Positions 96-33,144 of a DNA stretch of 33,891 nt are shown here, in pieces. Position 1 is the stretch's first letter, and each line of letters opens with the position of its first letter. The DNA is from a virus. A model generated the notes under the pieces. It made no database searches and was not told where the DNA came from. It saw only the letters and a list, made by a program, of their open reading frames with translations. The stretch spans positions 1 through 33,891 of IMG/VR virus record IMGVR_UViG_3300031772_000155; one strand, given 5' to 3'. The translations under genes were made by a program, and so were the position numbers.

Positions 96-1406
96 TCAAG
101 CCCCCGGAAGTTTTTGTGCATCCTCTACTGTCGCATAGACGGTAGAGGATTCTTGTTTTCCAGCACCCACGGTCAGGATGGAGTTCTGGGTCACTGACGG
201 ATTGATGTCCTGTCCCGGAGCCGTGGTTTCCGGTATGAGTTGAGAAGCGGTGTTGGGCTGGGTGATGGTGGTCCGGTCTTGGACGATTTCTCCGCGCCTG
301 AGTGTATACAACGTTTCCAGCGTCTCCTTTTTAACGGTGCGACAGACACCAGCTACGATGTAGTACCCAGACCACGGCGAAGTCTTTTCCTTCTGGGGTG
401 AGAGCACGAAGCGCAGAATGTCGCCCACGCGGATATTCATGCTGCGCGTCAGGTCCGCTGAAATCTCGAAAGTTTTGGCTCGACCAAAACTGTATACATT
501 CTGCGCCAGCGCCGACACTTCCTGCGGCTCGTTCTGGCTCAGGTGGTAGGTCATGGTCTGGACGCCATTGGGCACCTTGTCCATCCGGTAGATGCCGTCG
601 GCCAAGCGCAGGTACTTTTCCGGGTCGCTGACCACTTCGTTGGTCTGGCCGGTGTAGGGGTCGTAGGCGATGCAGCGGGTGCCCGCGATGCCCACGTCAA
701 AAAGCTGCTGGCTGCGGTCGTTCTGGACCATGCCCTTGAAGGGCGTGTCGAAGTAGGCGATTTCTTTGATTTCGGTCTGGTAGTCCGGGGTGTGGAAGTG
801 GAGCACGTTGTCCCGCATGTAGAGCAGGTATTGACCGCGCCCCTTGTCGTTGAGGCAGCGGTGGACCAGTCGGCGGTTGATGAACTCAACATCGGACTCG
901 TTGACCTGAATGTAGGCAAAGGTGCCGACGGTTGGCTCGACGACGGCTTCGACTCCAGCATCAGAGGCCATCTGCTTTACCATGTCGCTGATTTTGCCCT
1001 TGCGCGAAAGTATCTTGGTGCTCCGGTTGACGGTGAACAGCCGGTCGGCGGTGCTTATCTCGAAATTGTGCCCGGCATTGTTGCCCAGCCCCTTAATCAT
1101 CGCGGAGCAGTGGACAATCTGGTGCTCCTGCCACGGGAGCCACATGCTCTTGCCTTCGGTCACAAAGCCGATGCGCCAGCGCACGAGCGGGGTGCCGTCG
1201 GCCATGAGCGATTTGATGGATTTGTCTACAATGTCCACCTGCTGGGTGACGAAGCGGTGGTAGCTAATCGGGATTTCCTCCATGTTCTCATTCAGGGTGC
1301 TTTCCATGTGCTGGATGAGACCGGTGTTCAGGGACAGGGGCTTGTCGGTCGTGCCTTTAAGCTCGATGTCGAAAAGAACCTTTCCGGTGGGTAGGAAATC
1401 AATCAT
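96..1406 (-). CDS. gpD/gp27-like baseplate hub protein
   Basis: A 436-residue protein that resembles the phage late control D / gp27 / VgrG-N hub family, which forms the ring joining tail tube to central spike. Support: the segment ISDMVKQMASDAG (139-151), then NESDVEFINRRL (169-180), the typical 'short linear epitope, then S-D-x-x-F-I-x-R-L' arrangement of D proteins, then a beta-rich region and a Thr/Gln-rich tail (from ~385). The spike gene at 14739-15812 is the expected partner. The ATG lies 1 nt after the TGA of the upstream small gene, so translation is probably coupled to it. No Shine-Dalgarno is visible. Family assignment is by motif resemblance only; the fold is likely, the exact orthology is not certain. 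Confidence 0.65.
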   Translation of the reverse strand: MIDFLPTGKVLFDIELKGTTDKPLSLNTGLIQHMESTLNENMEEIPISYHRFVTQQVDIVDKSIKSLMADGTPLVRWRIGFVTEGKSMWLPWQEHQIVHCSAMIKGLGNNAGHNFEISTADRLFTVNRSTKILSRKGKISDMVKQMASDAGVEAVVEPTVGTFAYIQVNESDVEFINRRLVHRCLNDKGRGQYLLYMRDNVLHFHTPDYQTEIKEIAYFDTPFKGMVQNDRSQQLFDVGIAGTRCIAYDPYTGQTNEVVSDPEKYLRLADGIYRMDKVPNGVQTMTYHLSQNEPQEVSALAQNVYSFGRAKTFEISADLTRSMNIRVGDILRFVLSPQKEKTSPWSGYYIVAGVCRTVKKETLETLYTLRRGEIVQDRTTITQPNTASQLIPETTAPGQDINPSVTQNSILTVGAGKQESSTVYATVEDAQKLPGA

Positions 1407-1407
1407 G

Positions 1408-1719
1408 TCAGCCCTCGTCTATCGCGGTGAAGCGGCGCTCAAGGATGTCCAGAATGTAGCCCGGCACGGTGACATCGAACAGGGCGATGGTCGCGTCGGC
1501 AGGGTCGTTCAACGCTTCCAGCAGCCGCTCGATGGTGTTGGCGTTGGCAAAAACAAGACGGCATTCTTCTCCGGTCAACGTGATGCCGTCATCGTTGTTG
1601 GCCGAGTCCTCGGTGGGGTACAGCACGGCTTTGGATTCGCGGATGGTTTCCACCTGCGAGTCGATGCTTTCGCCGCGCAGTTCCTCAATCAATTGGACCA
1701 AGGCTTCTGGCTTCTTCAT
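1408..1719 (-). CDS. Small acidic protein upstream of the hub gene
   Basis: A 103-residue protein, acidic, with many Glu/Asp and Leu, predicted mostly helical (PEALVQLIEELRG near the N-terminus, a NTIERLLEALND helix at ~60-71). I do not recognise a family. It is co-directional with the hub gene and its stop is 1 nt from the hub ATG, so the two are likely one transcript. A role as a tail-assembly factor or small baseplate component would fit this position but is only inferred. Its ATG is 16 bp from the divergent GTG at 1736, so the space for conventional promoters is very small. The DNA just before the ATG reads TAACTATCCTAG. Confidence 0.6.
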   Translation of the reverse strand: MKKPEALVQLIEELRGESIDSQVETIRESKAVLYPTEDSANNDDGITLTGEECRLVFANANTIERLLEALNDPADATIALFDVTVPGYILDILERRFTAIDEG

Positions 1720-1725
1720 CTAGGA

Positions 1726-1731
1726 TAGTTA
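1726..1731 (+). promoter_or_regulatory. TAGTTA start-proximal element, 4 nt before GTG 1736
   Basis: GATAGTTA followed by CGTT and the GTG of the neck-like gene. Member of the window-wide TAGTTA set described in the findings. It lies in the 16-bp gap between two divergent starts. Confidence 0.45.
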
Positions 1732-1735
1732 CGTT

Positions 1736-2287: not shown

Positions 2288-2656
2288 TTGTATACAGTGA
2301 GCACGGCGACCACTGACATTTTTCCGACGATTCTGGAGGGCGTACACAACGTATTCCAGCAGCGGCTTGATGACCGCGAGCAGCGGAAGAAGGTCGCGGA
2401 AGCTTTGATGTCTTGGCTCGCTGATACGGCCCGCAAGAAAGACGTGCCGGACCTTGATGTGAAGCTGGCAGGTATGCAGCAGCGGGTGAATAAGCTGGTC
2501 GAGAACATGACCATCGAAATCGAAAAGGATAAGCCTGTAGTTAAGGCAGCCGGTAGTGATGAGGATACGTGGAAAATGTTCCGCCTCGGCACAAGCTGGT
2601 TTGAACCGAACCCGGATTTGATTGAAACGGTCCTGTCCGGGCTGTTTAACGAGTAG
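2288..2656 (+). CDS. Small helical protein of unknown function in virion block
   Basis: Up to 122 residues. The frame opens directly after the preceding TAA with TTG (2288); a GTG at 2297 giving VSTATTDIFP is the other candidate and I slightly prefer it. The protein is mainly helical with many charged residues (LDDREQRKKVAEAL ~25-38, MQQRVNKLVENM ~60-71) and an aromatic C-terminus (SWFEPNPDL). I recognise no family. Position between neck-like and fibre-like genes suggests a small virion or assembly protein. Two window-wide DNA words fall inside it: TGTATACA at its start (2289-2296) and an internal TAGTTA at 2538-2543. Confidence 0.6.
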   Translation: MYTVSTATTDIFPTILEGVHNVFQQRLDDREQRKKVAEALMSWLADTARKKDVPDLDVKLAGMQQRVNKLVENMTIEIEKDKPVVKAAGSDEDTWKMFRLGTSWFEPNPDLIETVLSGLFNE

Positions 2657-3043: not shown

Positions 3044-5041
3044 ATGGCCGACGAAACTCTGAACGCCAATGACGGAACCCTGAATGTTCGGGCAGGCTCG
3101 CTGGGCGGCACGTCGATGCGCTATCACGAGCTTGCGCTTCAGCGTTGGCTGAACCAACTATTCTACGTCCGTGAGGGTTACCCAGTCCCGGTGGTGTTTA
3201 CGTCGCCGATGGACGCCTTCTCCTATTTCGCCCAGCTTTGGTCTGACTCCAACAACCCTTTCGACTACCTGCTCAACCTCAAGGATGCCAACGGCACTCC
3301 GCTTTATGAGCCGCATCCTTCGCCGATTCGCTACCCGATAATTTCCGTTTATCGCAAGGGCTGGAAGTACCGGCAGTACCAGAACTTTTCGATTCATCGC
3401 TGGCGTCACATCAACTGGCCAACGGTCGCCAACGCTGGTACTGAGCGTTATGGCCCGGAGGCGCAGGGCTGGGATGTGACCAAGTGCCGCCTCGGCAACG
3501 TCACCACGTCGCGGATGCCGATGGCGTGGGACTACCGCTTTCAAGTAGACCATTTTTGCAACCGCCCGGACACGCAGGCATTCTTCATCGAGCAGTTGAT
3601 GCAGGAGTTCTGGCGCACAGGCGGCACCGTTCCGCAGACGTGGGTCACGGTGCCCTACCCCGGCTGGGGCAATCGACGGGTGCGCCTTTACCTCGACGGC
3701 GACATTGAAAACTTGACCCCGGAGGAACCTGAGACGGGCAAGAACGTGGAGTTCCGCACGAGCTTCACCATCGTCGTCGAGGGCTTTGACGTTGACCTGA
3801 AGTACGAAATTTACCCGGCGCTTTGGAATCTGGTCATGCGCTTTGGCCCGGTGGCTCCCATCGAACTGGAGGACTGCTTCAACTTAACCAAGACCACGGA
3901 CCTGCGGGTGACCGGCAGCAACACGACGCTGGACAGCAGGCCGAACGTGCCTTCGTGGGGCACTTGTCAGGAGGTTATCGAAGCGGCAGAGAGCGTGGCT
4001 TCCACACAGACGAACATTTACCTGACTTCGGCCAATGCTTCCTACACGGTCGAAAACGGCCTGCCCATCGTCATCCCTCCGGTCAACACTTTTGGAGTGT
4101 TTACAATCGGTACGACGGTTCCGGTTTATCTCATCACCGGCCACGTCACAGAGAATGGCACGGGCATGGATAATGTGCCGCTGACGATGACCGGAATCGG
4201 CACGACCTACACGGATGTCAACGGCAGCTACGGCATCAACGTGCTTGGACCTTTCAGCGGCGTGGCCCAGCCCGTCTGGTTTGGTGGCGCGTTCACTCCA
4301 CCGTTCCGCACTTACACCGCGCTGGGCACCAATCAATCCGGGCAGGACTACGCCTTCACCGGCACAACGCCGCCGACCTATCTCATCTCCGGCGTGATGA
4401 GCAACAACTTGGTGCCATTCAGCACGGACATTGCCTTTGACAGCCTTGGAACGTTTACATCTGCTGCCGACGGCAGCTATGGCGTATTGGTGCCTTACCT
4501 GTACAGCGGCGTATCCACGCCACTCTCAACCGGGGGCGTTTGGACGCCTGATTCGCGCACCTACGTTCAGGTGGTCGCGGACACGCCCAATCAGAATTTC
4601 GACTTCGCGGGAGCCGCCGTCATGGCCTACGGCACCGATTACGCCAGTGCGAACGGTTCGTTCGTCTACGGGTCTGCCGACCTCTACGTTTACACGATGG
4701 CGGGCGCTTCCCACGTGGCTTTCCTAAGCGGCAGCGTGTTGGACGCGGCAGTGCCGGGCGGCACCTTCTACAGCTACGGGACCAATACCGTGTCGCTCTA
4801 CAGTGGCACGCTGGCCGACACGATTGTTTACAGCTTCGGGACGGATTACGGCACGAACACCATCTCGCTTTACACGGGCACCCTGTTCGATACTTCGGTT
4901 AGCACCGGGACGACGATTGACGGCGGCACGAACTCGGTTTCCCTCGTGAATGGCACGCTGGCCCTCCTGATGATTGAGTCGGGAACGCACTTTGCCCAGA
5001 CAACCATCCAAGTCTCCTTCTTGAATGGAACACTAGCGTAG
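3044..5041 (+). CDS. Fibre-like virion protein with tandem beta domains and C-terminal repeats
   Basis: A 665-residue protein with three regions. Residues ~1-290 form a domain with many Trp, Tyr and Pro (for example NNPFDYLL, RYPIISVYRKGW), like attachment domains of phage tail proteins. From ~361 and ~446 come two related ~80-residue beta domains (YLITGHVTENGTG and YLISGVMSNNLVP, each followed by D-G/N-x-S-Y-G and ending near Y-A-F-T-G / F-D-F-A-G), which look like carboxypeptidase-regulatory/B-repeat domains. Residues ~565-665 carry four imperfect units of type GTNTVSLYSGTL, suggesting a beta-helix or fibre shaft. The function is probably an exposed tail or neck fibre that binds the host surface; that role is inferred. 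No signal peptide, no Shine-Dalgarno. Confidence 0.7.
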   Translation: MADETLNANDGTLNVRAGSLGGTSMRYHELALQRWLNQLFYVREGYPVPVVFTSPMDAFSYFAQLWSDSNNPFDYLLNLKDANGTPLYEPHPSPIRYPIISVYRKGWKYRQYQNFSIHRWRHINWPTVANAGTERYGPEAQGWDVTKCRLGNVTTSRMPMAWDYRFQVDHFCNRPDTQAFFIEQLMQEFWRTGGTVPQTWVTVPYPGWGNRRVRLYLDGDIENLTPEEPETGKNVEFRTSFTIVVEGFDVDLKYEIYPALWNLVMRFGPVAPIELEDCFNLTKTTDLRVTGSNTTLDSRPNVPSWGTCQEVIEAAESVASTQTNIYLTSANASYTVENGLPIVIPPVNTFGVFTIGTTVPVYLITGHVTENGTGMDNVPLTMTGIGTTYTDVNGSYGINVLGPFSGVAQPVWFGGAFTPPFRTYTALGTNQSGQDYAFTGTTPPTYLISGVMSNNLVPFSTDIAFDSLGTFTSAADGSYGVLVPYLYSGVSTPLSTGGVWTPDSRTYVQVVADTPNQNFDFAGAAVMAYGTDYASANGSFVYGSADLYVYTMAGASHVAFLSGSVLDAAVPGGTFYSYGTNTVSLYSGTLADTIVYSFGTDYGTNTISLYTGTLFDTSVSTGTTIDGGTNSVSLVNGTLALLMIESGTHFAQTTIQVSFLNGTLA

Positions 5042-5049: not shown

Positions 5050-6267
5050 ATGAGCACGTATCAACTGCATCAAACGGCACGCGGGCTTTACAAGGTCGCG
5101 GTCGTTGACGCCGCCACCAAAGAAGTTGTTTGGGAACAGAAAGAATGGGGTAAAAACCTCATCCTGAACAACGGCATGGACGCTGTGGCTGTTCGCTACT
5201 GGGCCACCTGCATGAGCTACGCTGTTGCGGGCACCGGCATCATTCCCACCGCCATTTCGTCAGCAGAAGTCACGGCATCGCAAGCGGGCAGCACCGTGAG
5301 CGCCACGGTTGGCAGCTACACGTTCTCCAGTGGCGACATCGGGAACATGATAAAATGGGACGTGGGCGGCGAGGAAGCTCGCATCACCGGCTACACGAAT
5401 CCGCAGTCGGTCACGGTCACGCCTGCTCAGTCGGTGGGCAGTGGAACGTTCGTGGTCTACCAGACCAATCAGACCGGCATGGCCACCGAGGTCAAACGCA
5501 CGACCACTTATCTCCCCAATGCACCGTATTGCCAGACCTCAGTGGATACTTCCACGGGCGTTGTGGCCATGCGCCGTACCTACGATTTTTCAGCAGAAGT
5601 AATTCAGCGCAATTACACCGAAGTTGGTGCGTGCTGGAATCAAACCGCTTTTACCGGCAATACGACTTTTTCGCGCATTCTGCTTCCGCTGGCGGTGACC
5701 GTGAATCCCGGTCAGCAGTTGCGCTTTGTATACGAACTCCAAATTATGGTCGGGCCTATCACCCCGGTCAGCTTTAGCGCGGCGGTGTCTGGCTGGCCGG
5801 TGCTGCCGTCTGTAAACACCAACGCCACTCAGCAGCTTGAGCATCACGGTTTGCAGATGGTAAGCGCAACAGGGTCACCTACCAACGGTACGGGTGGTTT
5901 TACCAACGAACCTTCGGAAATCAGCATTTACGGCGGGTACATGTTCGTCTCGCCCAATTCCACAGCTTTTCAGGCATTCGACACATCGACTGACCGGCGA
6001 ACGACGGGTTACGATGTCAATGCGATGAGCCTGCTGCCTTACACGCCGCTGAGTTTCACGTTGGACAAGACAGCAACCTTTACCGTTGCCCAGTTGAACC
6101 GCACGGATTTGAGGACGGTTGGAATCACGGCCAACTATTCCGGTTTGAATTTGAATGCAGCAGTCGCCAATGGGCTGGTGGTCCTGTTTGCCCAGTCTCA
6201 ATCCAAGAACAATACCCAGACGCTCACTTTCATCTTCCGGTTCACTTGGGGCCGGACGCTGGCTTGA
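5050..6267 (+). CDS. Tail fibre/tail-tip-like virion protein
   Basis: A 405-residue protein. Residues ~33-65 have the pattern common in phage tail proteins: GKNLILNNGMDAVA, then aromatic residues and A-G-T-G followed by I-P-T. The middle is Thr/Ser/Val-rich beta structure, and ~205-240 holds an EVGACW...LPLAVTVNPG stretch like the final beta module of such proteins. The last part ends in an F-x-F-R-F-T-W-G strand. The gene at 9668-10201 has the same N-terminal 'G-x-N-L-x-x-x-N-G...G-T-G' pattern and may be a distant paralogue. A role in the fibre or baseplate periphery is likely from composition and neighbours, not proven. Confidence 0.65.
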   Translation: MSTYQLHQTARGLYKVAVVDAATKEVVWEQKEWGKNLILNNGMDAVAVRYWATCMSYAVAGTGIIPTAISSAEVTASQAGSTVSATVGSYTFSSGDIGNMIKWDVGGEEARITGYTNPQSVTVTPAQSVGSGTFVVYQTNQTGMATEVKRTTTYLPNAPYCQTSVDTSTGVVAMRRTYDFSAEVIQRNYTEVGACWNQTAFTGNTTFSRILLPLAVTVNPGQQLRFVYELQIMVGPITPVSFSAAVSGWPVLPSVNTNATQQLEHHGLQMVSATGSPTNGTGGFTNEPSEISIYGGYMFVSPNSTAFQAFDTSTDRRTTGYDVNAMSLLPYTPLSFTLDKTATFTVAQLNRTDLRTVGITANYSGLNLNAAVANGLVVLFAQSQSKNNTQTLTFIFRFTWGRTLA

Positions 6268-6310
6268 GTTGTAGACAAATGTGTTCCAAGTGACCGAATC
6301 ACGAACCGAG

Positions 6311-9678: not shown

Positions 9679-10201
9679 AGGCTTAGTCACCATCTCGAAA
9701 ATCACGCTCGCGGACGGCAAGCAGTTGTCCACCCAGCAGGCGATTGATTACGGTTGGATTTGTCAGCCGGTGGGCCGCCAGCCCGGTGGTTGGGGTCTGG
9801 AGCGCCATGAAGTGCCGCTGGGCCAAAACCTGTTTGTAGACAATGGCCGCCAGTTGGTCGCCTACGCCTTCGGCTTCCGCGCTCCCATCCAGAATTTCGT
9901 CTGCCAGAACTTCGGTGTCGGCACCGGGGTCACGACCGCTCGTGTGACTGATGTCGCGTTGGAAGCCCCTATCACACTTACCACGGGCCTCACCAAGCCA
10001 ATCGACACGGTGGACTTCCTCTCGGCCTTCGTGGTGCGCGTGGCCTTCACCTTGGGCTTGTCTGACGCCAATGGCTACGTCATCTCGGAGATGGGCTTGT
10101 TCTCCGGCAACAACTCGCTGATGGCCCGTAAAATCCGGGCGGTCAGCATCAACAAGAACTCGGAATTTGCGCCCACGCTCACGTGGCGGTTGCGCTTCTA
10201 A
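9668..10201 (+). CDS. Tail fibre/baseplate-like virion protein
   Basis: A 177-residue protein whose start overlaps the previous gene by 11 bp. It carries a pattern common in small phage tail proteins: GQNLFVDNGRQLVAYAF (~56-72), then NFGVGTGVTTARVTDVALE, and a C-terminal module ISEMGLFSGNNSLMARK (~140-156) followed by alternating hydrophobics ending in W-R-L-R-F. In known relatives this 'E-M-G-L-F...L-x-A-R' module is a beta domain of tail-tip or fibre-attachment proteins. It resembles the N-terminal part of the 405-residue protein at 5050. Placement after sheath, tube and zinc-ribbon genes supports a tail role. Confidence 0.6.
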   Translation: MRPKGLVTISKITLADGKQLSTQQAIDYGWICQPVGRQPGGWGLERHEVPLGQNLFVDNGRQLVAYAFGFRAPIQNFVCQNFGVGTGVTTARVTDVALEAPITLTTGLTKPIDTVDFLSAFVVRVAFTLGLSDANGYVISEMGLFSGNNSLMARKIRAVSINKNSEFAPTLTWRLRF

Positions 10202-10616: not shown

Positions 10617-11452
10617 TGGAAATCGTTCCCGCTGGCGGCGTCGTAGAGGTAGCGCAACTCGCGCAGGCGGTTCAACACTTCCGGCATTTCCAGAGCCGCC
10701 ACGTCCGCATCGCTGCCAAAGACCAGTGGCGCGGGCTTGGGCAGCTTGATGCTGGTGGTCAGCAGCGTACGTTCCAGCGAGCCGTAGAACTGTTCGCGCT
10801 GTTCCTCGTTCATGTTGTTCTCCAGTGCGCCAAGGCAGTCATCAAAGGTCATGTCCTTGGTGATACACTTGAACAACTTCTTCACCTTCTCTTTGCCCCA
10901 GCCGCGCACGCCCGGTATGCAGTCCACGCTGTCCCCTTGGATGGCCAGCGCCATCGCAATTTGACAGGGCTTTTTTACGTGGAACTTGTTGCAGACGAAG
11001 GTCTCGCTCAGCACGCATTTTTCGTTCAGGCTGTAGTAGGCCACGTTTTTGTCTACAAGTTGCATCAGGTCTTTGTCCCCGGATGCGACCACGAGGTTGG
11101 TCTTGGGACCGGCATTGTAAACAGCCGAGGCAACCAAGTCGTCGCCTTCAAACTTTTCAAGCTCGACGTTGGCGGTGCCTATCAGGAGGGCAAACAGTTC
11201 CTTGGCGATGTCCCGAAAGTCGTAGTATTCCTGCGGCTTGGGTTCGCGGTGCTTGGACTCGTGAGGGCCACCATCCCAGCAAAACATGGTGCGGTCAAAG
11301 GTCGTGCCTATCTGGCTCGTGACCGGGTTGAGCAGGCTCAGAATGGTGACGGCGGCCAAGCGAAGCGTTTGCTCAGGCTCCGGGCCTATCTTCTGCGCGG
11401 CGTACCATGACCGGGCATACAGGGAGTTAGCGTCTACAATTAAGTCGGTCAT
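10613..11452 (-). CDS. FEN-family 5'-3' exonuclease / flap endonuclease
   Basis: A 279-residue protein of the phage flap-endonuclease family (T5 D15, T4 RNase H, Pol I N-domain), which removes RNA primers and 5' flaps in replication. Metal-ligand motifs are in order: VDANS (D7), CWDGG (D60), EGDD (102-105), SGDKD (124-128) and GDSVD (173-177), followed by the helix-3-turn-helix GVRGWGKEKV (181-190) that grips DNA. Length is normal for the family. The ATG overlaps the TGA of the small gene upstream (ATGA), so the two are translated together. All acidic ligands expected appear present, so it should be active. It complements the primase at 24645 and the SbcD-like nuclease at 32092. Confidence 0.92.
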   Translation of the reverse strand: MTDLIVDANSLYARSWYAAQKIGPEPEQTLRLAAVTILSLLNPVTSQIGTTFDRTMFCWDGGPHESKHREPKPQEYYDFRDIAKELFALLIGTANVELEKFEGDDLVASAVYNAGPKTNLVVASGDKDLMQLVDKNVAYYSLNEKCVLSETFVCNKFHVKKPCQIAMALAIQGDSVDCIPGVRGWGKEKVKKLFKCITKDMTFDDCLGALENNMNEEQREQFYGSLERTLLTTSIKLPKPAPLVFGSDADVAALEMPEVLNRLRELRYLYDAASGNDFQ

Positions 11453-13864: not shown

Positions 13865-13881
13865 AATTATTTTCAATTATC

Positions 13882-20384: not shown

Positions 20385-21067
20385 ATCTCTCTAATGTCAC
20401 GCTCTTGGCGATTGACGTGGCTGACCCCGGCAAGACGTTGGAGGCGCTGCTTTACACCATGCGCTACGTTGGGTTCGGCGACGTGGTGCTGGCGACTGAC
20501 TTGGACCGCTGGCAAACGATTCCTGACCGATACCCGATTCGTCTACACCCGATTAAGCAATCCGATGACAAGATTCAAGGCTCCATCCGGTCGTTCTTCA
20601 AGGACTACGAACGGCAGCAAGTCACGCTCCCGGCGGAAATCATCAAAACAGATTTCGTACTCTGTCAGGAGTGGGACTCTGCCGTGGTCAACCCTCTGGC
20701 ATGGGACAACTCGTGGTTCAACGTGGATTACATCGGCGCGGTCTGGCCGCCTTATTACGACCCCGGCTGGCCGCCGACCACACAGGGCTATAACGTCGGC
20801 AACGGCGGGTTCTCGCTTCGTTCAAAGCGGTTCTGCGAATTGATACGCAAGGCGGCGCTGGACTGGCCGGATGACCCCGGCTTGATGTCCTACGATTGCT
20901 GGATGTGTCGGACGATGCGCCCGTGGCTGGAGACCAACGGAATGCGCTTTGCGAGCGAAGAACAGGCGCTTCGGTTCGCCTGTGAGGATGCGCTGTACAC
21001 AGGTCAGTTCGGCTTTCACGGCAAGGCGACCATGAAGATGAACGGTTGGACCTTGCATTGGTTTTGA
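20378..21067 (+). CDS. DUF5672-like putative glycosyltransferase
   Basis: A 229-residue protein overlapping the previous stop by 7 bp. The signature is DYIGAVWPPYYDP followed by GYNVGNGGFSLRSKRFCELI (~134-153), the 'Y-I-G-A-P-W...V-G-N-G-G-F-S-L-R' core of DUF5672-type glycosyltransferases. An FVLCQEWDSAVVNP segment (~94-107) has the acidic pair expected in the sugar-nucleotide site. Length is near that of the family. Position in the cassette supports a sugar-transfer role. What it modifies (virion proteins, host surface glycan or a small molecule) is not shown by sequence. The following gene starts 3 bp after its stop. Confidence 0.65.
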   Translation: MLNLSNVTLLAIDVADPGKTLEALLYTMRYVGFGDVVLATDLDRWQTIPDRYPIRLHPIKQSDDKIQGSIRSFFKDYERQQVTLPAEIIKTDFVLCQEWDSAVVNPLAWDNSWFNVDYIGAVWPPYYDPGWPPTTQGYNVGNGGFSLRSKRFCELIRKAALDWPDDPGLMSYDCWMCRTMRPWLETNGMRFASEEQALRFACEDALYTGQFGFHGKATMKMNGWTLHWF

Positions 21068-21070: not shown

Positions 21071-23131
21071 ATGGAAACAGATACATGTCGAGAGCGGCTG
21101 GCCCCTTATTGCAAGGGGGCGGGTGTAGACATTGGCTTCGGTGGCTGTGCCATAGTGCCGTCGGCTATGTGCCTCGACCGCGAGGAATTGAACCCCAGTC
21201 GGGCCAAGAACCCGCACGCCTCGCCTACCCATCTGGTGGGAGAGGCGGAGTATCTGCGCTGGTTCAAAGACGGCGTGTTGGACTATGTTTACTCGTCTCA
21301 CTGCTTGGAGGACTTCTACGACACCAAGACCGTGCTGGCGGAGTGGCTGCGCGTCATCAAACCGGGCGGGTATCTGGTGCTGTTCCTGCCTGATGAGCAG
21401 GTCTACCGCAGCGTCACCCCGGAGGAAATCAGGAACAAGGCTCACCAGCACGCGGACTTCAGCGTGGAGTACGTGAAGGGCATTTTGCGCGAATTGGGCT
21501 ACAACGAAGCCTGCATCGTCCACGAACTCTGGCCGGTGCCCAATAACCTTTACTCTTTCGATTTGGTGGTCCAGAAGCCCGTGCTTCAGGTGGCCGCCGA
21601 AGCTGCGCTGTGGTCTGATGTGGCAGAGGCTCCGCCGCCCCCGCCGCGTAAGCGCAACGCAGCGAGCTTTGAAAACAAGAGGATTATCCAGATGGGCCGC
21701 TACGGGGACATCATCAACATTCTGCCCATCGCTAAGGACATCGCGGCCAAGATTGGCAGACCGGTGCCCATCATCTGCAAGAGCGACTATGCCGACATTC
21801 TGGATGGCGTGAGCTACGCGGTCGCGGAGCCTGCGGGCGGTGGAGAGTTGCCCACGGATTCAGGTGTCCTCGATACCCACGCCGCGCATCCTTTAAGTGA
21901 GCGCCGCGTCCCCTACAACCTTCAAGCGTGGGAGCAGGTTGGCTACGCTGACCGTTTCCACGAGCTTCTGCCGGTGTTCGACCGGCGGTGTCGAATCCGC
22001 GAAGTGGCCTTGGTGGAAAGCCTTGTCACCTTCGAGAAGCCGGTCATGGTGGTGGCCCTCCACGGGCTATCCTCGGCGATGGCAGAGAACACGCGCAGCA
22101 TCCTCAAGAAGCTGATTCACGAAAGCTTTAACCTTCAGTTTCAAATCGTTGAACTGACGACCAAAGCCCATCGGCCTTATGACCTCTTGGGCTTGCTCGA
22201 CGTGGCGGCGGTGGTCTTGACCATCGACACCATGCTGCTACATCTGGCGACGGCTTCCAACGTGCCGGTCGTGGCCTTCTTGTCCAATCATCCTCCGGTG
22301 TTCTGGCGGGCCAGCGCCGTCAAAGGCAACGTTGTCTACAGTACACCTTATGACAAGGTTGTAGACAATTGGCCGCTGGTGGTCCGGGCCGTGGAGGCGC
22401 ACAAGCGCCAGCCATTGATACCGAACAATCCGGTCTACCATGTGGTGCCGACCGTGGAGCCGAAAAACGAGGGCGCGGCCCGGCGCTATAAAGCTGCCAA
22501 AGATTCATGGCAGACGTTCCACGAGCAGGGCGCGGTGTTTCTGTCTTACAACGACCAGAACGCGCTGCGAGTGTTTACAATGGGCGAACGGAAGTTGCCC
22601 TACCTGAAGGACGCCTTCAAAATGGCCTTGGAAGCTTCCAGCGGGAACAACGACATCATCTGCTTCACCAACGCGGACATCATCCTGACACCGGGTTTTT
22701 ATCACGCCCTGCAAAATCGGATGGGCGTGAACGACTTTTGCTGCTCGTTCCGCATGGAGTTTGAAGCGACGGATACGGCCAAATGTGGTTATCGAACCCA
22801 CGGGCGCGACATGTTCGCTTTCAAACGCCTGTGGCTGGCCCAGCATTTCGACGAGATTCCAGATTTCCTCATCGGCATGGGCGGGTGGGACTATGCGCTG
22901 TCCATGTGGTTTCGGGTGCTCTCAGGCCGGTCGCCAGAAAGTTGCGACCCCTCCCAGTGTATGCCAGACATCGAGATGGAATACGGCTTTGTTTGGCACG
23001 AACGCCACGAGGCCGCGTGGTACACAGAGACAGAGACGGCTTATGCCGAAGCAGCAAATCACAATCGAGCTTGTCTCCGGGCGTTCTTTGAACGTATCGG
23101 TCTGGAGCAGGCGCATAAGGACATCAAATGA
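21071..23131 (+). CDS. Trifunctional fusion: methyltransferase, GT9-like and GT-A-like domains
   Basis: A 686-residue protein with three domains. Residues ~1-180: class I SAM methyltransferase of type-11 style (GAGVDIGFGGCAI as glycine-rich loop, VLDYVYSSHCLEDF, then VIKPGGYLVLFLPD). Residues ~200-450: GT9-like domain opening RIIQMGRYGDIINILPIA, with VVLTIDTMLLHLATASNVP near the end, the pattern of the donor half of heptosyltransferases. Residues ~480-686: GT-A-like domain with CFTNADIILTPGFYHAL (~532-548), where N-A-D may serve as D-x-D, and GMGGWDYALSMW, comparable to the G-x-D-x-x-x-x-x-R region of polypeptide-type transferases. A linker PPPPPRKRN separates the first two. Start ATG has no Shine-Dalgarno (TTGATTTATG). 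Confidence 0.7.
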   Translation: METDTCRERLAPYCKGAGVDIGFGGCAIVPSAMCLDREELNPSRAKNPHASPTHLVGEAEYLRWFKDGVLDYVYSSHCLEDFYDTKTVLAEWLRVIKPGGYLVLFLPDEQVYRSVTPEEIRNKAHQHADFSVEYVKGILRELGYNEACIVHELWPVPNNLYSFDLVVQKPVLQVAAEAALWSDVAEAPPPPPRKRNAASFENKRIIQMGRYGDIINILPIAKDIAAKIGRPVPIICKSDYADILDGVSYAVAEPAGGGELPTDSGVLDTHAAHPLSERRVPYNLQAWEQVGYADRFHELLPVFDRRCRIREVALVESLVTFEKPVMVVALHGLSSAMAENTRSILKKLIHESFNLQFQIVELTTKAHRPYDLLGLLDVAAVVLTIDTMLLHLATASNVPVVAFLSNHPPVFWRASAVKGNVVYSTPYDKVVDNWPLVVRAVEAHKRQPLIPNNPVYHVVPTVEPKNEGAARRYKAAKDSWQTFHEQGAVFLSYNDQNALRVFTMGERKLPYLKDAFKMALEASSGNNDIICFTNADIILTPGFYHALQNRMGVNDFCCSFRMEFEATDTAKCGYRTHGRDMFAFKRLWLAQHFDEIPDFLIGMGGWDYALSMWFRVLSGRSPESCDPSQCMPDIEMEYGFVWHERHEAAWYTETETAYAEAANHNRACLRAFFERIGLEQAHKDIK

Positions 23132-23670: not shown

Positions 23671-24464
23671 AAACCTTGTTCTGCTGCGGCACGGCCACCC
23701 AGACCACCCAAGGCCAGTCCGGGCTGTGGCGCTGGTGGTTTTACTACCGTCCGCTCAAGGAGCAGTTCGGCGCGACACATTACGCTGTAAACAATGACGG
23801 CAATGTGAACTTGCCCAACGAAGCTTTCATCAAGCACCACGACGGCGAGAAGCCTATCGACCTGTTGAGTGAGGACCAGTTGAACCTCATTCACTGGTCA
23901 AGTTCGCTTCCGCGCAAGAGCCAGTATGCCTGCCCCGGTTATTACCGGAGCGTAAGCACGCTGACTGAACTGGCCTTCCAGCAGAATTTCGACAAAATTG
24001 TATACATTGAATGGGACTTCTGGGTGTTGAGCGCCGAGATGATGCGTGAAATTGCTCGTGTGGACCACGGTTTGATAACCTATTGGTCGCCCCGCTACCT
24101 GTTCCCGGACTGCAACATCATCGTCTGCGCCAGAGACCAAATGAAGGTGCTGAAGGAGTTCTCCGACCGCTTGGGAGCCAAGGAGGACATGACGGCGGAG
24201 ACGATTGCTGAAGTGACTTTCCCGTGGACGGAAGTGCGGAAGCACCGAGTCGGCGACCGCTACCCGGAAGTGACAATGGACTTGCCGCTGGATGTGGAGT
24301 ACTGCGCCCAGTTGCCCAACACTGAAGTTGTACACAGAGCCAAGCTGGTCAGGCTGGCGTGGGAGCTATGCCCGCAGTGCGGCGGGAAGATAGAGTTCAA
24401 CGTCAAAGGAGTCCTGTCCTGCCGGGTCTGCCGCCCGGAGCAGTTCAGTTTGCCACTGGAATGA
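23667..24464 (+). CDS. Putative glycosyltransferase with C-terminal zinc ribbon
   Basis: A 265-residue protein. The GTG start overlaps the previous TGA (GTGA); an upstream in-frame extension would overlap the methyltransferase fully and is disfavoured. VKTLFCCGTATQTTQGQSG is the N-terminal strand and loop, and FDKIVYIEWDFWVLSAEM (~109-126) has E-x-D in the position of a GT-A D-x-D, followed by a strand with SPRYLFPDCNIIV. These suggest a nucleotide-sugar transferase but no exact family is recognised. Residues ~233-255 hold CPQCGG and CRVC, a zinc ribbon that is uncommon on such enzymes. It is the last gene of the cassette and overlaps the convergent small gene by 20 bp. Confidence 0.55.
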   Translation: MKTLFCCGTATQTTQGQSGLWRWWFYYRPLKEQFGATHYAVNNDGNVNLPNEAFIKHHDGEKPIDLLSEDQLNLIHWSSSLPRKSQYACPGYYRSVSTLTELAFQQNFDKIVYIEWDFWVLSAEMMREIARVDHGLITYWSPRYLFPDCNIIVCARDQMKVLKEFSDRLGAKEDMTAETIAEVTFPWTEVRKHRVGDRYPEVTMDLPLDVEYCAQLPNTEVVHRAKLVRLAWELCPQCGGKIEFNVKGVLSCRVCRPEQFSLPLE

Positions 24465-24644: not shown

Positions 24645-25745
24645 ATGATAGGTCCAGCGTTACGAGCCGAGATTGAGCACACATTCCAAATCGCCACCTT
24701 GCGGTGTACGACGGAGGAACTGGTGTTCCTGTGCCCGGAGTGCGGGGATACCGGTGGCAACCGTTCCGTAAATCTACGGACAGGCGTCACATCCTGTTGG
24801 CGCTGCGGCAAGGGCAAGTTCAACAAGGGCAACTTCGTCGCATGGGCCAAAGCCAACGGTTATCAATTCACCACCGCTGGGGACATGACTGGGGTGCCGC
24901 TGGACGAAGTGCTGGTCGAGCCAGAAACGGCCAAGTCGCGTGTGCCTTACGTCAAAGCTGTCGATTTGCCAAAGGGCTTCATTTACCTCCGCGAAGAACC
25001 TGACAGCGCCTACGCCACGCTCATCGAGCGCATGGCCATCCGAAAGAATCTGACTTACGATGACTTGGAGGCTGCCGACGCTGGGTTCACTCGTGACGAT
25101 GCCCTGTGGGAACCGTTCTGCATTTTCCCTGTCAAGGAACTGGGACAAATAACTTATTATCAAGGTAGAACTTATGTGGATGTGCCGGGCCAGACGACCA
25201 AGAAGTTCCCCAGCCGCAACGAAGTTCCGCACGGCTCGTCCTGCTGGCTCTACAACTACGACGAGTTCCGGGACCGGCAGGTGCCTACGGTTATCGTGGT
25301 GGAGGCTATCCTGAGCACCCTGTCGCTGAAGAAAAAGCTCCGGGAGTTGAATGAGCGCAGCGTGGTGCCCCTGTGCGTGTTCAAACATTCCATTGGCAGC
25401 ATCCAGTTGACAAAGCTTTTGAAGTGCAAATGGCTGAAGGAAATCTGCCTCATGTTCGACCACGACGCCATCGACCAGACGTGGAAGCAGATGGGCAACC
25501 TCGGCAGTCAGGTGAAACTGACCATTGCGGAGATGCCCGCGACCGAGGACAACAAGAAGCTCGACCCAAACGATGACCCGGACGCGGCGATAGCCGCCTT
25601 CGATGCGCGGACGGCGTATACGATGGGCACCAAGACCGGCTCCGAGTTTGAGCGGACCCTGCGGGTGGCTCCGGCCCGAAACATGGCAACCATCGACTTG
25701 AGCAAGTGTATACAACGAACATCCAGTTCTAAAGAGCATGATTAA
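24645..25745 (+). CDS. DNA primase (zinc ribbon plus TOPRIM), no helicase domain
   Basis: A 366-residue protein. An N-terminal zinc ribbon (C30-x2-C33 and C51-x2-C54, CPEC...CWRC) as in phage and DnaG primases; a middle region with aromatic residues; then a TOPRIM domain with VIVVEAILSTL (catalytic Glu at 220), LMFDHDA (D272, D274) and KLDPNDDPD (~306-313) ending the site. These are the three expected acidic clusters. It should synthesise RNA primers. Unlike T7 gp4 there is no C-terminal RecA-type helicase; the helicase is presumably encoded elsewhere. The ATG lies 14 bp from the divergent GTG at 24630, with no Shine-Dalgarno. Overlaps the next gene by 8 bp. Confidence 0.85.
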   Translation: MIGPALRAEIEHTFQIATLRCTTEELVFLCPECGDTGGNRSVNLRTGVTSCWRCGKGKFNKGNFVAWAKANGYQFTTAGDMTGVPLDEVLVEPETAKSRVPYVKAVDLPKGFIYLREEPDSAYATLIERMAIRKNLTYDDLEAADAGFTRDDALWEPFCIFPVKELGQITYYQGRTYVDVPGQTTKKFPSRNEVPHGSSCWLYNYDEFRDRQVPTVIVVEAILSTLSLKKKLRELNERSVVPLCVFKHSIGSIQLTKLLKCKWLKEICLMFDHDAIDQTWKQMGNLGSQVKLTIAEMPATEDNKKLDPNDDPDAAIAAFDARTAYTMGTKTGSEFERTLRVAPARNMATIDLSKCIQRTSSSKEHD

Positions 25746-26650: not shown

Positions 26651-29600
26651 GTGGCTGTTATTACACTACTCGCAAACGGCTCGCGCTCGACGGCGCTTCT
26701 GCTAAATGATGCCGTCCAGTTCGTGACCCAGATTGACGGCAGGCCGGTCTTGCCGGATGTCTGGAACGTCTATGTGGGCGTGACGCTCGTATTCAGCGGC
26801 CTCGGCAGTGCGATTGCCTTCACGCCCACACTTTCCCAGCCCCACACCATCCACGTCATTGCTCAAGACCCGGAAGGCTTCCAAGTCGAAGGAGTTTTCG
26901 TTTACTCGGTTTCTGGCCGTCCCGCCGGGGTAGCTTCAATTTTCATCCGGTGGGACCGAGAGGTTTACCGGGAGCGCGACACGCTCATTGGCACCATTTC
27001 GTGGAATGACCCGCAAGGGCTGCCTGCCCGCATCAATTCGTGGACGCTCTGCTGGAATAATCAAGTGATGAGGACCGGCACGGGGAGCGCGGTCTATTAC
27101 GAGGGGCTTTACCACGGTCTTTGGCGGTTGCGGGTTACTGGCGTGGACGCTTACGGCGTGCCGCTGGCCGGGGATGGCACCGCATTCGTCCAGCCCTATT
27201 ACGAGCGCCGGGATGCCACCGTGCCGCCTGTGTTGGATGGGAGCTTGGTCTATTTGGGGTCTGTGTTCTCCGGCATCGTACACGGCGAAGGCGGCGTTTC
27301 CGCGACCCTTCCGTATCAACTGGCCAGCTACGCTCAGGACGCCAAGCTGATGCCGGGCACGACCCACGTCTTTTTCGACCTCGACCCCAGCTTCGACACG
27401 GTGGACGACGAAGTGGTGATTCGGTCGCATACCGGCAATTATGCCCTGATGGGCCTGCTGGCTCCCGGAGCGCCCATCGGCTACGACGTGCTGCCCAACG
27501 ATTACCTGCCTGCCGGAGCCGACAAGCAGATGCGCTACACCATCGACGTGTTCAACACGTCCGGGGCGTTTTACTCAGCGATGAATTTCCGGGTGCGGGT
27601 CCGTTGCTATCGGCTGGTTCCGGCATTGTACCGGTACTCTCAGTGCCCCTATTCCACCCAGCCGGGTGGCGAAGGCCAGCGCCAGCGCCGCTGGGCGGTC
27701 GTATTCAGCCAGATTCAGCTTCAGGGCGGTCAGGTCTACAACGCGCAGGCTCCGGGCACCATCCCGTTGGCGACGCTCACTGCGACTGGCCTGCCCAATC
27801 CGTATGATTCGCTGACTCGCGTGGTCTATACGCAGTCCAACCGCTACGTGGCCTACGAGCGCAGCGAAGCGCCTGACCTCGACGCCAACGCCATTTGTGC
27901 GATTGAGGGTTTGCGGCCCTTCTGCATGGCGGTTCAGGTGCCCGGAAACCTTCCGGCGTTTACAACGCTGGGGAGAGTCGCGGGCAAGATGTACCTTTAC
28001 CTGAACGGCGCGGCCATCACGCAGGGAGCGACAGTGAGAGTACGCATACAAGGCGGCAGCGGGGAAACAGTGTACACAGTGCCCATCACGGCAGATGTTT
28101 ACAATCCCTCCAGCGATGCCTTTGTCTGCGTGGGCGGCGTCGATGTCAGTGTTCAGGACTACCAGTTCGATTTCAACGGCCTCGTGGCGTGGATTGAGAT
28201 GGACGAGACCACAGCGGTTCAAATGCCGCCGGGCACTGTGCCCACTCCTGTTTGGGGGCCGGACTATGTGTACTCCGGGACGTACTTCGGGACCGTGGCT
28301 CGCGGTGTGTCCTTCGACGGAGCCTGCTATAGCAATCCCGTCAAGATGGTTGCTGTCGATGTGGAAAGCGCGTCGGTGGTCCAACAGATTAGCGGCTGCA
28401 CCGACCCCGCCTGCGGGCCGACTGCGGTTTACTGCTACATTTCGGTCTGCGCTCCTTCGGAATGCGTGACGGTGACACAGCCCTTGCACAATCCAGCGCC
28501 CTACGTGGCCTACGGCAGCAACCCAAGCCGGTGCTACGCCAGCCCGGAGTTCATTGCGGAAGGCTCGACTTCTGGTGACTTCATCGCGGTGTCTGGCGAC
28601 CTCTGTGGCGATGCCTATCGCTATACGCGCTGTGACCTCAAGGATACGGCGGTCGTGGTCTACCCCTGCTTGACCGTGCCTCACAGCTACGTTCGGTATC
28701 TGGCTGACTGCTACGCGCTCTCAGGAGCGATTGTAGACTACGGCACCATCGCCACCATCGTCCCAGTCGGCAGCGTGGCTCCAGTGGCGGGCTGTTTGGA
28801 CGTGCTCTGCACAGGCAGCAACGCCAACGGGGATGCGTACGTGTACTTTGACACCCAGACCGACGATAAGATTCCGGTCTATTTCGAGGGGCTGACCAGC
28901 GGCCTGCCAACGTTCGGGGTGGCTCCGGGCAAGACTGACCTTGGAAGTACTTTGACGGATGGCGTGGCGGCTTTGAAGTTCGCCTTTGGACCACGGCTGG
29001 ACATCCTGACCGTAAGCAGCACGGGCGTTCTGGTCGTGGACGTGGGTCTACCTTCGGTAAACAAGCGCATCATTGTCCGGCGCAGCATGGGTGAGCTTGT
29101 ATACGACCTGCCTATCCACACCACATCAAAGGCCATCGCGGTTCAGCCCAATGACCGGCTGCTGCTCGACATCTCGGCCTACGGCAGCTTTACCAAGCGC
29201 CAGCGCGGTATGAGCACCGTGGTCCGCTGGACCCCGCTGATTGACGTTCCGCGAGTGTTCGACACGTCCTATGTCACTGTGTCCGGCACCTACGCCATCA
29301 ATGCGGTGGGCTTTACCGGGGTCACGGATAGGACCAGCTACCAGTTCTTTGGCACCCTCCCCAGCGATACGACTTCAAGCGTCGTGAACCCGGACAGCCT
29401 TGTGACGATTCAAGGCGTGGATGTGCCCACAGCGGAGTTTGCCTTGGTGCGGAGCCGTTCCGTGGGCGAGCCTCCGCCCGGAATGCCCAGTGGGATTCAA
29501 TGGTACGGGGGCCAGACCTTCACTGGCCAAGTCCAGTTCAATTTTTACGCGCTCAGGGGCAAGCAGGGGTCGCACGGTGAGATGGATGTCTGGTTTGGCA

Positions 29601-30739: not shown

Positions 30740-31385
30740 GCAGGTCGAAGCGGGCTTCCCACTCAGCCTGCATTCTGACCATTGCTTCGTCTACATTCTG
30801 CACCTTCAGCTTGTCCGCGCCGACGAGGTTGCGGATGGTGAGCAGGACATTTTTGGCGACTTCGTAGGCGGGGTCGCCCATCTCCTTATTGATGGGAATG
30901 TATACAGGCGTGGTGCTGTTGAGCTTGTCGTCGGTCGAGATGATTTGCACCACGTAAGGGTCGTGGATGAAGTCCCCGGCAATCTGCACGTTGGCCGTGG
31001 GTCTTACAATTTCCTGCCCCTTGAGAATGCGCCCATCTGGAAGCGTGATGTCGGGGGTCATGCCGATGACCTCGCGCTTGTACTCCCAGCCGGGCCGGGA
31101 GGTCACGAACGCGATATTCATCGGCTTGCGGATGGAGACATCCACCATGACCTTCCCGATTTCGAGACTGATGGAGGTTGCGCTTTGGGAGACGCAGTTG
31201 CAGCGCCAGCCGCATTGCTTGAGGATTTCGTCTACATAGACAAGGCCGATGCGGGCGCGGGCGTGCAGGTCGGCGATGGTCTTGAGGACGATATTCTTGC
31301 GTTCGCGTTCAACGAGCTTGGCGTCATACTTCACGACGGCTCCATCCGGGGCCACCAGCCAGCCTATCTGCTTGCGTTCAGTCAC
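30711..31385 (-). CDS. Unrecognised 224-residue protein
   Basis: The open frame extends much further upstream on this strand, but that part crosses a terminator and is antisense-phase to the 31450 gene. The coding-like part begins at GTG 31385 (VTERKQIGWLVAPDG). Then come a helical region, a C-G-W-R-C-N-C cluster (~57-63), beta strands (SLEIGKVMVDVSIRKP) and a DITLPDGRILKGQEIV hairpin, ending with a helix NVDEAMVRMQAEWEARF. No family recognised. A G-rich GGGGGG tract precedes the GTG and may or may not help initiation. It lies directly below the terminator at 31397, so it must have its own transcription start or rely on read-through. Confidence 0.6.
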   Translation of the reverse strand: MTERKQIGWLVAPDGAVVKYDAKLVERERKNIVLKTIADLHARARIGLVYVDEILKQCGWRCNCVSQSATSISLEIGKVMVDVSIRKPMNIAFVTSRPGWEYKREVIGMTPDITLPDGRILKGQEIVRPTANVQIAGDFIHDPYVVQIISTDDKLNSTTPVYIPINKEMGDPAYEVAKNVLLTIRNLVGADKLKVQNVDEAMVRMQAEWEARFDLLTSSGSQNQ

Positions 31386-31396
31386 ACCCCCCAAGA

Positions 31397-31425: not shown

Positions 31426-31449
31426 GCGATTTTGGATGGAACGGCTGGC

Positions 31450-31986
31450 TTACCAGCTTCCGCCAGACTGCGGCGGGTTGTTGCCGTTCGGGTTGATGTT
31501 GCCCGGACCCGCATTGATGTTGTGGTCGGTCGTGGCTGGACCACCAGTGGTGCCCCACTTCTTGGTGAGGGTCGCCCGGTCGAAGCCTTCGTCGAAGCCC
31601 CAAGACTTGCGGCCAGAAGCCACGATGTCGATTTGGGCATTGCGGAGGTCCGCCTTGTTGCGGATGACGGCACTGATGTTGACGGTGGTGTTACCCGAAC
31701 CGAAGAAGCCGACGACCTTGCTGACAAGGACGTAGCTCTTGGTGAGCGTTCCACCGGGCACGATGGAGAAGCCGAGGAAGCCGGTTGTGGTGTAGGTCGT
31801 GTCGATGGCAGCGAACCCGGAAGGGGGCGTGGAGCCATTGTACTGCATGAGGCGGATGTACGCCGTGTTCGGACCCGTGTTTTCAAACACGAAATCCAGA
31901 TTGCCGAGGCGGTCGCCTGCCGACTGCGCGTAACCGGCAAACACTGTTGCGTCGGGACCAAAGCCGACACTTGATAGTTGATTCAT
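31450..31986 (-). CDS. Likely abundant surface virion protein (beta-rich)
   Basis: A 178-residue protein, Gly/Thr/Asn-rich, beta-patterned. Segment LDFVFENTGPNTAYIRLMQYNG (~30-51) recalls IIKNSGVNTMNYRFQEFNG in the 10205 gene; next come ATTFLGF-type strands and SKVVGFFGSGNTTVNISAVI (~90-109). The C-terminal ~45 residues turn hydrophilic and flexible (NINAGPGNINPNGNNPPQS). Its own 105-bp leader and a strong terminator make it a single-gene unit, often seen for highly expressed phage proteins such as capsid decoration proteins; abundance is inferred, not shown. No TAGTTA element is present and no Shine-Dalgarno (ATAACAGCGT precedes ATG). Confidence 0.6.
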   Translation of the reverse strand: MNQLSSVGFGPDATVFAGYAQSAGDRLGNLDFVFENTGPNTAYIRLMQYNGSTPPSGFAAIDTTYTTTGFLGFSIVPGGTLTKSYVLVSKVVGFFGSGNTTVNISAVIRNKADLRNAQIDIVASGRKSWGFDEGFDRATLTKKWGTTGGPATTDHNINAGPGNINPNGNNPPQSGGSW

Positions 31987-32091
31987 ACGCTGTTATTTGT
32001 TGTTTGCTTGCCGGGTTAGACCGGCGTCTTTGTTCGTCGTAACAACTCACCGTTCCCACTTCCTGTCTCAGACAATTGGAGACTAATACCC
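31987..32091 (-). promoter_or_regulatory. Leader/intergenic region with palindrome and hairpin
   Basis: Space upstream of the 31450-31986 gene. It contains an 11-bp palindrome TGTCTCAGACA (32064-32074) and a small hairpin GCCGG/CCGGC (32010-32014 with 32021-32025). No convincing -35/-10 pair was found. It is the longest leader candidate in the window and could hold promoter and control sites for a strongly expressed gene. Confidence 0.35.
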
Positions 32092-33126
32092 TTAGATGTC
32101 TCCGGCGGCTATCATCTTGCCTATTTCGAGCACTTCCGCGTCCTCGGACTCAATCCCGGCGTCCTTCGGCGGCACCAGCGCCATGTAACGTTTGGCGATT
32201 CCCTCGAAGGTCCAATCTTCTTGGATTTGTTGTTCTTCCGGCAGCCCTTCCTCGTAGGTGTAGACCGGCTCAGCTTGATGGAAAAGCGGGTGCCGGAAGA
32301 AATCTTCCGCTTCAGCGTGAGAGGTTAAGGCAACCTTGAACCGGTTCTCGGTCTTTTGCTGGGAGACCACTTTGAACTGTGCCAGTGAGACCTGATGATA
32401 CTCCGGGTAGCCCTCCAATGGAACCCACGTGATGGAGCAATCGTCGGTGTCGAGCACGCCTACGCGCTTGGCTTCCCCGGCCTCACCCCAGTCCTGCTGG
32501 AAAGGAGACCCCACATAATGTATACAATCGGAAATGGTCTGGGGTATGTGTACGTGTCCGAGCAGGGCGAGGTTAAAATGCTTGAGAATGTCTACAGGGA
32601 CTCCGTGGAGCGCCGGGCCGGAGTTCATCCGGGCACCGACGACTTGGAAGTGGCCGAACAAGAGCTTGGGGTAGTTCCGGTATTCTTTCAAGCCTTCGAT
32701 AAGCCACTTGGTCAGTTCGCCGTAGTCCTCGGTGAATGAGCAGAAGAAGGCCATGTAGGGGCCGAACTCAAAGATGTCGTAGCCGTCCACTACGTTGAAC
32801 TTGTGCTCGAACAGGCGGCGGTTGTTTATTTCCGCGTTCCGCAGGTATTGCTCGTGGTTGCCGGTCAACTTGAAGTTCCAGTCTGAGTTTGGGAACAGGC
32901 TCAGGCCCGCGCCCAAGACTTCAATCGTGGGCCACGTGATACTGGTGCGGTCATCGGTGGTGTCGCCAAGGTCAATGACCCCGCAGCACTTGTGCTCATC
33001 GTAGATGCGCCGCGCATCCTTGAAAAATTTCTCCATCCGAAGGTGCTGAAGGGTCTTGCCCGGTTCGAGGAAAGACATAGCATCTCCATCCGTTCCCTGA
33101 AGGTCAGCGTAGGTCAATAAGCGCAT
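32092..33126 (-). CDS. SbcD/Mre11/gp47-like recombination nuclease subunit
   Basis: A 344-residue protein of the metallophosphoesterase nuclease group. Blocks in order: TYADLQ (5-10), DLGDTTDD (52-59), TGNHEQY (88-94), LLFGHFQV (155-162), LLGHVHIPQ (188-196) and YVGSPFQQDWGE (204-215), the last being typical of SbcD/gp47 ('Y-x-G-S-x-x-x-x-x-x-x-E'). Usually motif I reads D-x-H; here it is D-L-Q, so one metal ligand may be changed. In T4, gp47 pairs with the ATPase gp46 for end resection and recombination-dependent replication; a gp46-like gene is not in this window. ATG is 28 bp from the divergent 33155 start. No Shine-Dalgarno. Confidence 0.85.
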   Translation of the reverse strand: MRLLTYADLQGTDGDAMSFLEPGKTLQHLRMEKFFKDARRIYDEHKCCGVIDLGDTTDDRTSITWPTIEVLGAGLSLFPNSDWNFKLTGNHEQYLRNAEINNRRLFEHKFNVVDGYDIFEFGPYMAFFCSFTEDYGELTKWLIEGLKEYRNYPKLLFGHFQVVGARMNSGPALHGVPVDILKHFNLALLGHVHIPQTISDCIHYVGSPFQQDWGEAGEAKRVGVLDTDDCSITWVPLEGYPEYHQVSLAQFKVVSQQKTENRFKVALTSHAEAEDFFRHPLFHQAEPVYTYEEGLPEEQQIQEDWTFEGIAKRYMALVPPKDAGIESEDAEVLEIGKMIAAGDI

Positions 33127-33144
33127 ACGTGTTTACAGAACGGA

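Follow-up and report, generated by a model that had tools for sequence, protein, structure and literature searches.

The 33,891-nucleotide stretch of DNA analysed here (the window; positions 1 to 33,891 of the IMG/VR virus record IMGVR_UViG_3300031772_000155) belongs to a large phage with a contractile tail and covers its tail and baseplate region. The genes encode the sheath, a tail fibre and baseplate hub proteins along with an exonuclease, a primase, an SbcD-like nuclease and glycosyltransferases, and scattered through them is a short gapped palindrome, TGTNNACA. Genes were called with a home-made gene caller, with approximate start positions, and expected counts rest on base composition, on order-2 Markov models or on shuffles. 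The initial annotation, made from the sequence alone, had estimated about 31 words against 5-6 expected, all with A-N or N-T in the centre. Exact counting gave 31 copies against 5.5 expected from base composition, running from position 303 to 33130-33137, with the centres AT (7), AG/CT (10), AA/TT (9) and AC/GT (5) and no others. The word ranked first among 64 gapped palindromes in the window, and TGTATACA was the most over-represented 8-mer (7 copies against 0.12 expected, order-2 Markov). The core tolerated little change, as TATANACA, TCTANACA, TTTANACA, TGCANACA, TGTANTCA and TGTANAGA had zero copies, and clear relaxation was seen only at the outer T/A pair toward C/G (TGTANACG 5.6-fold and CGTANACA 3.1-fold enriched). 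A literature search found no relevant paper on the palindromic word itself.

About 25 of the window sites (~80%) were intragenic and 6 intergenic, the latter also over-represented (0.2 expected). Independence of reading frame, as initially described, held in that all three codon phases occurred, but the phases were uneven (15/8/2) and most sites were in the GTA-NAC register. Both orientations were present on the coding strand (13 vs 6 in the window, 37 vs 27 in the relative G022 and 51 vs 122 in the relative G018). Sites occurred at about 0.2-2 per kilobase (kb) in every region and were not clustered, with 27 gaps of up to 30 base pairs (bp) against 34.6 expected and a coefficient of variation of gap length within the random range. 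Tandem arrays of the MetJ kind were considered and rejected, as short spacings showed no excess. Enrichment in both coding and non-coding DNA with dispersed spacing was found in all motif-bearing genomes, the pattern of many gene-independent sites expected of a nucleoid protein.

Selection on DNA rather than protein had been proposed initially, to be given up if codon-preserving shuffles reached similar counts or if relatives lost the word at synonymous positions, and both comparisons were run. Three hundred codon-preserving shuffles within genes gave a mean of 3.3 copies and a maximum of 9 against 25 observed, and the mean was still 3.3 when the shuffles also forbade the 49 palindromic hexamers missing from the window and GATC. 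The relative G001 (75% DNA identity; the same species as G010) retained 11 of 12 aligned window sites, compared to 40 of 214 (19%) for other gapped palindromes and 18% for random 3+3 patterns. At synonymous third positions of site cores in conserved codons the window and G001 were identical at 20 of 20 against 10.6 expected (P<1e-5), while the centre bases varied, unlike the cores. The reversed comparison gave 21 of 24 identical (12.3 expected). G006 against G005, which is a second independent comparison beside that of the window with G001, gave 14 of 16 (8.1 expected), and G004 against G005 gave 7 of 8 (5.0 expected; not significant). Aligned positions of G006 and G005 exchanged TGTAAACA and TGTTTACA, indicating that the site is read as a palindrome. 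The codon usage behind the proposal was also borne out, with GTA making up 26 of 113 Val codons before NAC against 38 of 745 elsewhere, and the preceding codon ending in T before 18 of these 26 GTA codons against 136 of 858 before any Val. Together these data strongly support that natural selection maintains the word as DNA, even within genes.

Many of the intergenic sites in the clade genomes lay 2-75 bp upstream of start codons, and in G020 and G019 sites were concentrated 2-74 bp before them. TTGAC was found 17-20 bp upstream (mostly 18-19) of 22 of the 152 promoter-side sites against a background of about 0.5%, and at the same spacing from 12 of 1160 coding sites. Two window promoters, before the genes starting at 12540 and 13930, were nearly identical and read TTTTTTCTGG-TTGACG-N17-TACAGT. 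Both were sigma70-like (12495-12540 and 13880-13930), with TGTCTACA covering the -10 box and the -10 box only about 6-7 bases from the start codon, a spacing from which several messages would be nearly leaderless. Sibling promoters in G022 with the same AT-rich upstream part and TTGAC had -10-like boxes without the word (TATACT, TACGAT and TAGTAT in our reading), suggesting that the word is an operator lying over the -10 box rather than the -10 box itself. Only a minority of sites overlapped a promoter -10 box (12524 and 13913 in the window). A site lay at most 120 bp upstream of the sheath gene in 6 of 13 genomes and upstream of the GroES-like gene family in 6 of 8 genomes. The window sites are collected in Table 1, where G002 is a contig of the window's own species (99.6% identity).

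Table 1. Copies of the word and promoter elements in the window, and their state in relatives.
Feature	Position	Context	Relatives
TGTATACA	303..310	within gene 96-1406(-)	kept in G001/G010
TGTATACA	491..498	within gene 96-1406(-)	kept in G001/G010
TGTCTACA	1223..1230	within gene 96-1406(-)	kept in G001/G010
TGTATACA	2289..2296	start of gene 2288-2656(+)	kept in G001/G010
TGTTTACA	4098..4105	within gene 3044-5041(+)	kept in G001/G010
TGTTTACA	4825..4832	within gene 3044-5041(+)	outside aligned stretches of G001
TGTAAACA	5811..5818	within tail-fibre-like gene 5050-6267(+)	kept in G001/G010
TGTAGACA	6270..6277	62 bp upstream of tail sheath gene 6332-8638(+)	kept in G001/G010
TGTAGACA	9835..9842	within gene 9668-10201(+)	kept in G001/G010
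TGTCTACA	11050..11057	within exonuclease gene 10613-11452(-)	kept in G001/G010
TGTAAACA	11116..11123	within exonuclease gene 10613-11452(-)	TGTATACA in relative, centre change only
-35-like TTGACG	12505..12510	+ strand, promoter of gene 12540-13280	
TGTCTACA, operator-like	12524..12531	overlaps -10 TACAGT 12528-12533	
-35-like TTGACG	13894..13899	+ strand, promoter of gene 13930-14742	
TGTCTACA, operator-like	13913..13920	overlaps -10 TACAGT 13917-13922	
TGTGTACA	15795..15802	near start of spike gene 14739-15812(-)	TGTATACG in relative
TGTACACA	16805..16812	within gene 16741-17907(+)	TGTATACA in relative
TGTAAACA	20012..20019	within glycosyltransferase gene 18408-20384(+)	
TGTACACA	20994..21001	within gene 20378-21067(+)	
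TGTAGACA	21124..21131	5' part of gene 21071-23131(+)	
TGTCTACA	22333..22340	within gene 21071-23131(+)	
TGTAGACA	22360..22367	within gene 21071-23131(+)	
TGTTTACA	22572..22579	within gene 21071-23131(+)	
TGTAAACA	23786..23793	within gene 23667-24464(+)	
TGTATACA	23999..24006	within gene 23667-24464(+)	sole aligned site lost in near-identical contig G002
TGTACACA	24329..24336	within gene 23667-24464(+)	TGTCTACA in G002
TGTATACA	25707..25714	end of primase-like gene 24645-25745; ~31 bp before GroES-like gene 25738-26424	
TGTACACA	28071..28078	within gene 26651-30739(+)	
TGTTTACA	28096..28103	within gene 26651-30739(+)	
TGTATACA	30899..30906	between called genes, within long reverse open reading frame	
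TGTATACA	32519..32526	within SbcD-like gene 32092-33126(-)	
TGTCTACA	32589..32596	within SbcD-like gene 32092-33126(-)	
TGTTTACA	33130..33137	immediately upstream of SbcD-like gene	

The relatives were contigs from IMG/VR, the longest of 238 kb, all from uncultured phages and possibly incomplete. Named phages shared only distant structural proteins with them in a host search, in which the sole match from genome collections was a short contig in a Flavobacteriales metagenome-assembled genome. The word was enriched in 12 of the 13 clade lineages examined, in which a TGT or CGT gapped palindrome ranked first or second, and its centre and flanks drifted between lineages. The TGTANACA form was enriched in the window, G010, G012, G013, G015 and G022, and its clade-wide form YGTANACR in G003. 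In G018 enrichment was for CGTAAACG (96 copies against 6.6 expected), and in G004, G005, G006, G019 and G020 almost solely for TGTAAACA. The missing centre variants in G004-G006 are explained in part by the purging of GTAC, GTATAC and GTAGAC. No enrichment of the word was found in G008, the one outgroup tested; the GTCTATGAC word of that genome was also considered and dropped, as it turned out to be located in coding sequence and unconnected with promoters.

Other repeats and genes were noted in the same contigs. In G025 (L131-L134), TTGTTTAA stands at some promoter-like places near starts in place of the word. G010/G001 (L032-L037, L046-L047) carry another dispersed repeat family (AGCGAGCC 44-51 copies and AGAGCACC 38-46 copies against 1-4 expected), and G015 (L152-L158) a different and very frequent repeat (GGCTACAC 149 against 4.5, CCGGTGTA 125 against 6.1). 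A Ro60/TROVE protein with a vWA domain is conserved in the clade (L035:1516-3222, with relatives in G003 and G006). A 273-amino-acid DUF3008 protein (L037:2560-3381 in G010) is 82% identical to that at 41638-42372 of G005, although the rest of the two phages has diverged much further, which suggests that the gene was transferred recently.

These phages are also marked by extreme elimination of restriction sites. Six-base palindromes were wholly absent for 49 of the 64 possible in the window (120 in total against 572 expected) and for 56 of 64 in G004, and the missing sets differed between sister phages. GATC was absent from the window (121 expected) and GTAC was normal; the reverse held in G005, G004 and G006 (L038-L041, L050-L051, L015-L026), where GATC was common, GTAC was absent or nearly so (0/115, 0/42 and 8/485) and so were GTATAC and GTAGAC.

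We consider it probable, at roughly 0.6, that TGTANACA is recognised by a sequence-specific DNA-binding protein that acts as a dimer. This protein, which the phage itself most likely encodes, would combine promoter repression with an intragenic array. Bound at sigma70-like promoters with the site on the -10 box, such a protein would block RNA polymerase. Bound within genes it would form dispersed road-blocks or architectural contacts, as stoperators or nucleoid-associated proteins do. Of the candidates listed in the initial annotation, the best fit is a site bound by a stoperator-like or condensing DNA-binding protein of the phage. A modification site, also listed, is disfavoured as discussed below, and a packaging or recombination signal would leave the strand symmetry, the presence of sites everywhere and the -10 overlap unexplained.

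The best candidate for the binder, named tentatively, is a ribbon-helix-helix (RHH)-like protein of 67-86 amino acids with an invariant Phe-Arg following a short strand. It is encoded just past the SbcD-like gene in relatives, and the window stops short of the expected position. The protein was present in every motif-bearing lineage whose contig covers the locus. G014 and G027 are among these, and their sister contigs have no HU gene. Its AlphaFold model has an extended N-terminus followed by helices at 13-25 and 34-46 (mean predicted local distance difference test score, pLDDT, of 85), a predicted layout consistent with an RHH chain, and two of the six Foldseek matches listed (E 9.7) were RHH domains, those of PrpA and CdbA. 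Other proteins were considered as well. An HU gene lies near the capsid gene in the clade (PF00216, 5e-21), and as binder this protein was weakened by its absence from that locus in the motif-bearing G013 and G020; a second HU-like protein is encoded in the same region as the RHH-like one. A helix-turn-helix-like protein of 111 amino acids (G015 41031-41366) was rejected, as it was in only 3 genomes, and Pfam annotation of 30 conserved G006/G022 proteins named no regulator.

Several points weigh against a phage-encoded repressor and its array. Repression by itself does not account for the sites, most of which lack a promoter, and the binder may be coded by the host instead of the phage. G025, a close relative by its capsid protein, lacks the word. 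Foldseek matches of the RHH-like protein were insignificant (best E 5.6), as were all matches of its family in Pfam and PDB sequence searches. The protein was also present in the outgroup G008/G009/G011, of which G008 is not enriched for the word, so that having the protein is not enough to predict the word, and other core genes had the same phyletic pattern.

A possible though doubtful account is that the word marks sites of an architectural, nucleoid-like protein which chiefly folds or packages the replicating genome, with promoter overlap being incidental. The sites are indeed mostly intragenic, dispersed and unclustered, the clade has the two HU-type genes, and CdbA of Myxococcus offers a precedent as an RHH nucleoid protein (PMC7156744). 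The fixed TTGAC spacing and the concentration of sites before start codons in G020 and G019 look regulatory, however, and two motif-bearing genomes lack the HU gene at its usual locus. An immunity repressor acting through operators and stoperators, like that of the temperate cluster A mycobacteriophages, would match the combination of promoter operators with many scattered sites, which is the anatomy of stoperators (PMC9283540), but the site is a short strand-flipping palindrome and not an oriented 13-mer. No tyrosine integrase (PF00589) was found in 15 records, several near 200 kb and all possibly incomplete, and near-total elimination of restriction sites is reported to be commoner in, and typical of, non-temperate phages (PMC6286503). 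The phage looks strictly lytic and a temperate immunity system is improbable.

Sites that cover the -10 box of TTGAC-N17-TACANT promoters, as a rule 8-17 bp ahead of the start codon, could also suggest that the word is itself a promoter element of the phage, an extended -10 recognised by RNA polymerase that the phage has modified. Such an element would be oriented, placed before genes and present in most promoters. The sites are mostly intragenic and symmetric, with 25 of 31 in the window lying within genes without a -35 signal, the sibling promoters of G022 carry other -10 boxes and the palindrome turns over at conserved places, which leaves this reading little room. Recognition by a phage or host methyltransferase, as a DNA-methylation or self-recognition site, would suit a short palindrome in phages under extreme restriction pressure. 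We regard it as very unlikely, since a modification site needs neither conserved positions nor enrichment and since the three main DNA-methyltransferase families (PF01555, PF02086 and PF00145) were patchy. They were absent from G022, G013, G003 and G005 and missing from most motif-rich relatives, including a 211-kb record with 122 sites. G020/G027 (L112-L119) have two PF01555 and two PF00145 matches, PF00145 being found in no other record searched. That the word is a by-product of codon usage or palindrome avoidance is hardly conceivable: many alternative palindromes are forbidden in this genome, but a codon-usage artefact is rejected by the shuffles and the synonymous core identity, and a by-product of the missing palindromes by the constrained shuffles and the intergenic excess.

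Among phages, arrays of repressor sites spread over the whole genome are best known from the stoperators of temperate mycobacteriophages. The present array belongs to a clade of uncultured, apparently lytic large myophages, is mostly intragenic and is under selection. Three or more related versions of the site exist in the clade, so that the code of binding and its drift can be tested, as can the function, be it silencing, compaction or timing. More speculatively, and with rather low confidence, a strictly lytic jumbo-type lineage may organise and silence its own genome via a small phage RHH-type protein, with dispersed palindromes (tens to about 200 per genome), selection within genes and co-evolution of site and specificity between sisters. 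If the binder were found, this would be a case of a virus that tags its own genome in cis as often as every kilobase, with an operator code usable for typing such phages. Operators of the MetJ and Arc type likewise are short promoter palindromes, about 8 bp long, to which RHH dimers bind, but they have few copies and no genome-wide intragenic array.

The start-associated sequences (SAS/ESAS) of cluster K mycobacteriophages are also repeated short words directly before start codons that are conserved in relatives (PMC3203893), but the SAS, a 13-mer without symmetry, is confined to gene starts and nearly always has one orientation, and the window sites are not asymmetric 13-mers adjoining start codons. 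CdbA of Myxococcus xanthus, a small RHH nucleoid protein with more than 500 sites of which about 35% are intergenic (PMC7156744), resembles the present case in its genome-wide sites, both intragenic and intergenic, and in the candidate small RHH-like protein. It differs in being a cellular tetramer with a GC-rich direct-repeat site, and the match of the phage candidate, a putative binder, to CdbA was not significant. Cluster A stoperators, as for the repressors of L5 and TipsytheTRex, share the many genome-wide copies of a short site, some at promoters, and one phage protein is thought to block both initiation and elongation there (PMC9283540). They are asymmetric 13-mers bound by a monomer, oriented with transcription and placed in short intergenic gaps of temperate phages. 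The window sites, in contrast, are 8-bp palindromes, mostly intragenic, in a clade with no integrase found and with a specificity that drifts. As they are neither asymmetric nor oriented, they are not members of the mycobacteriophage stoperator family.

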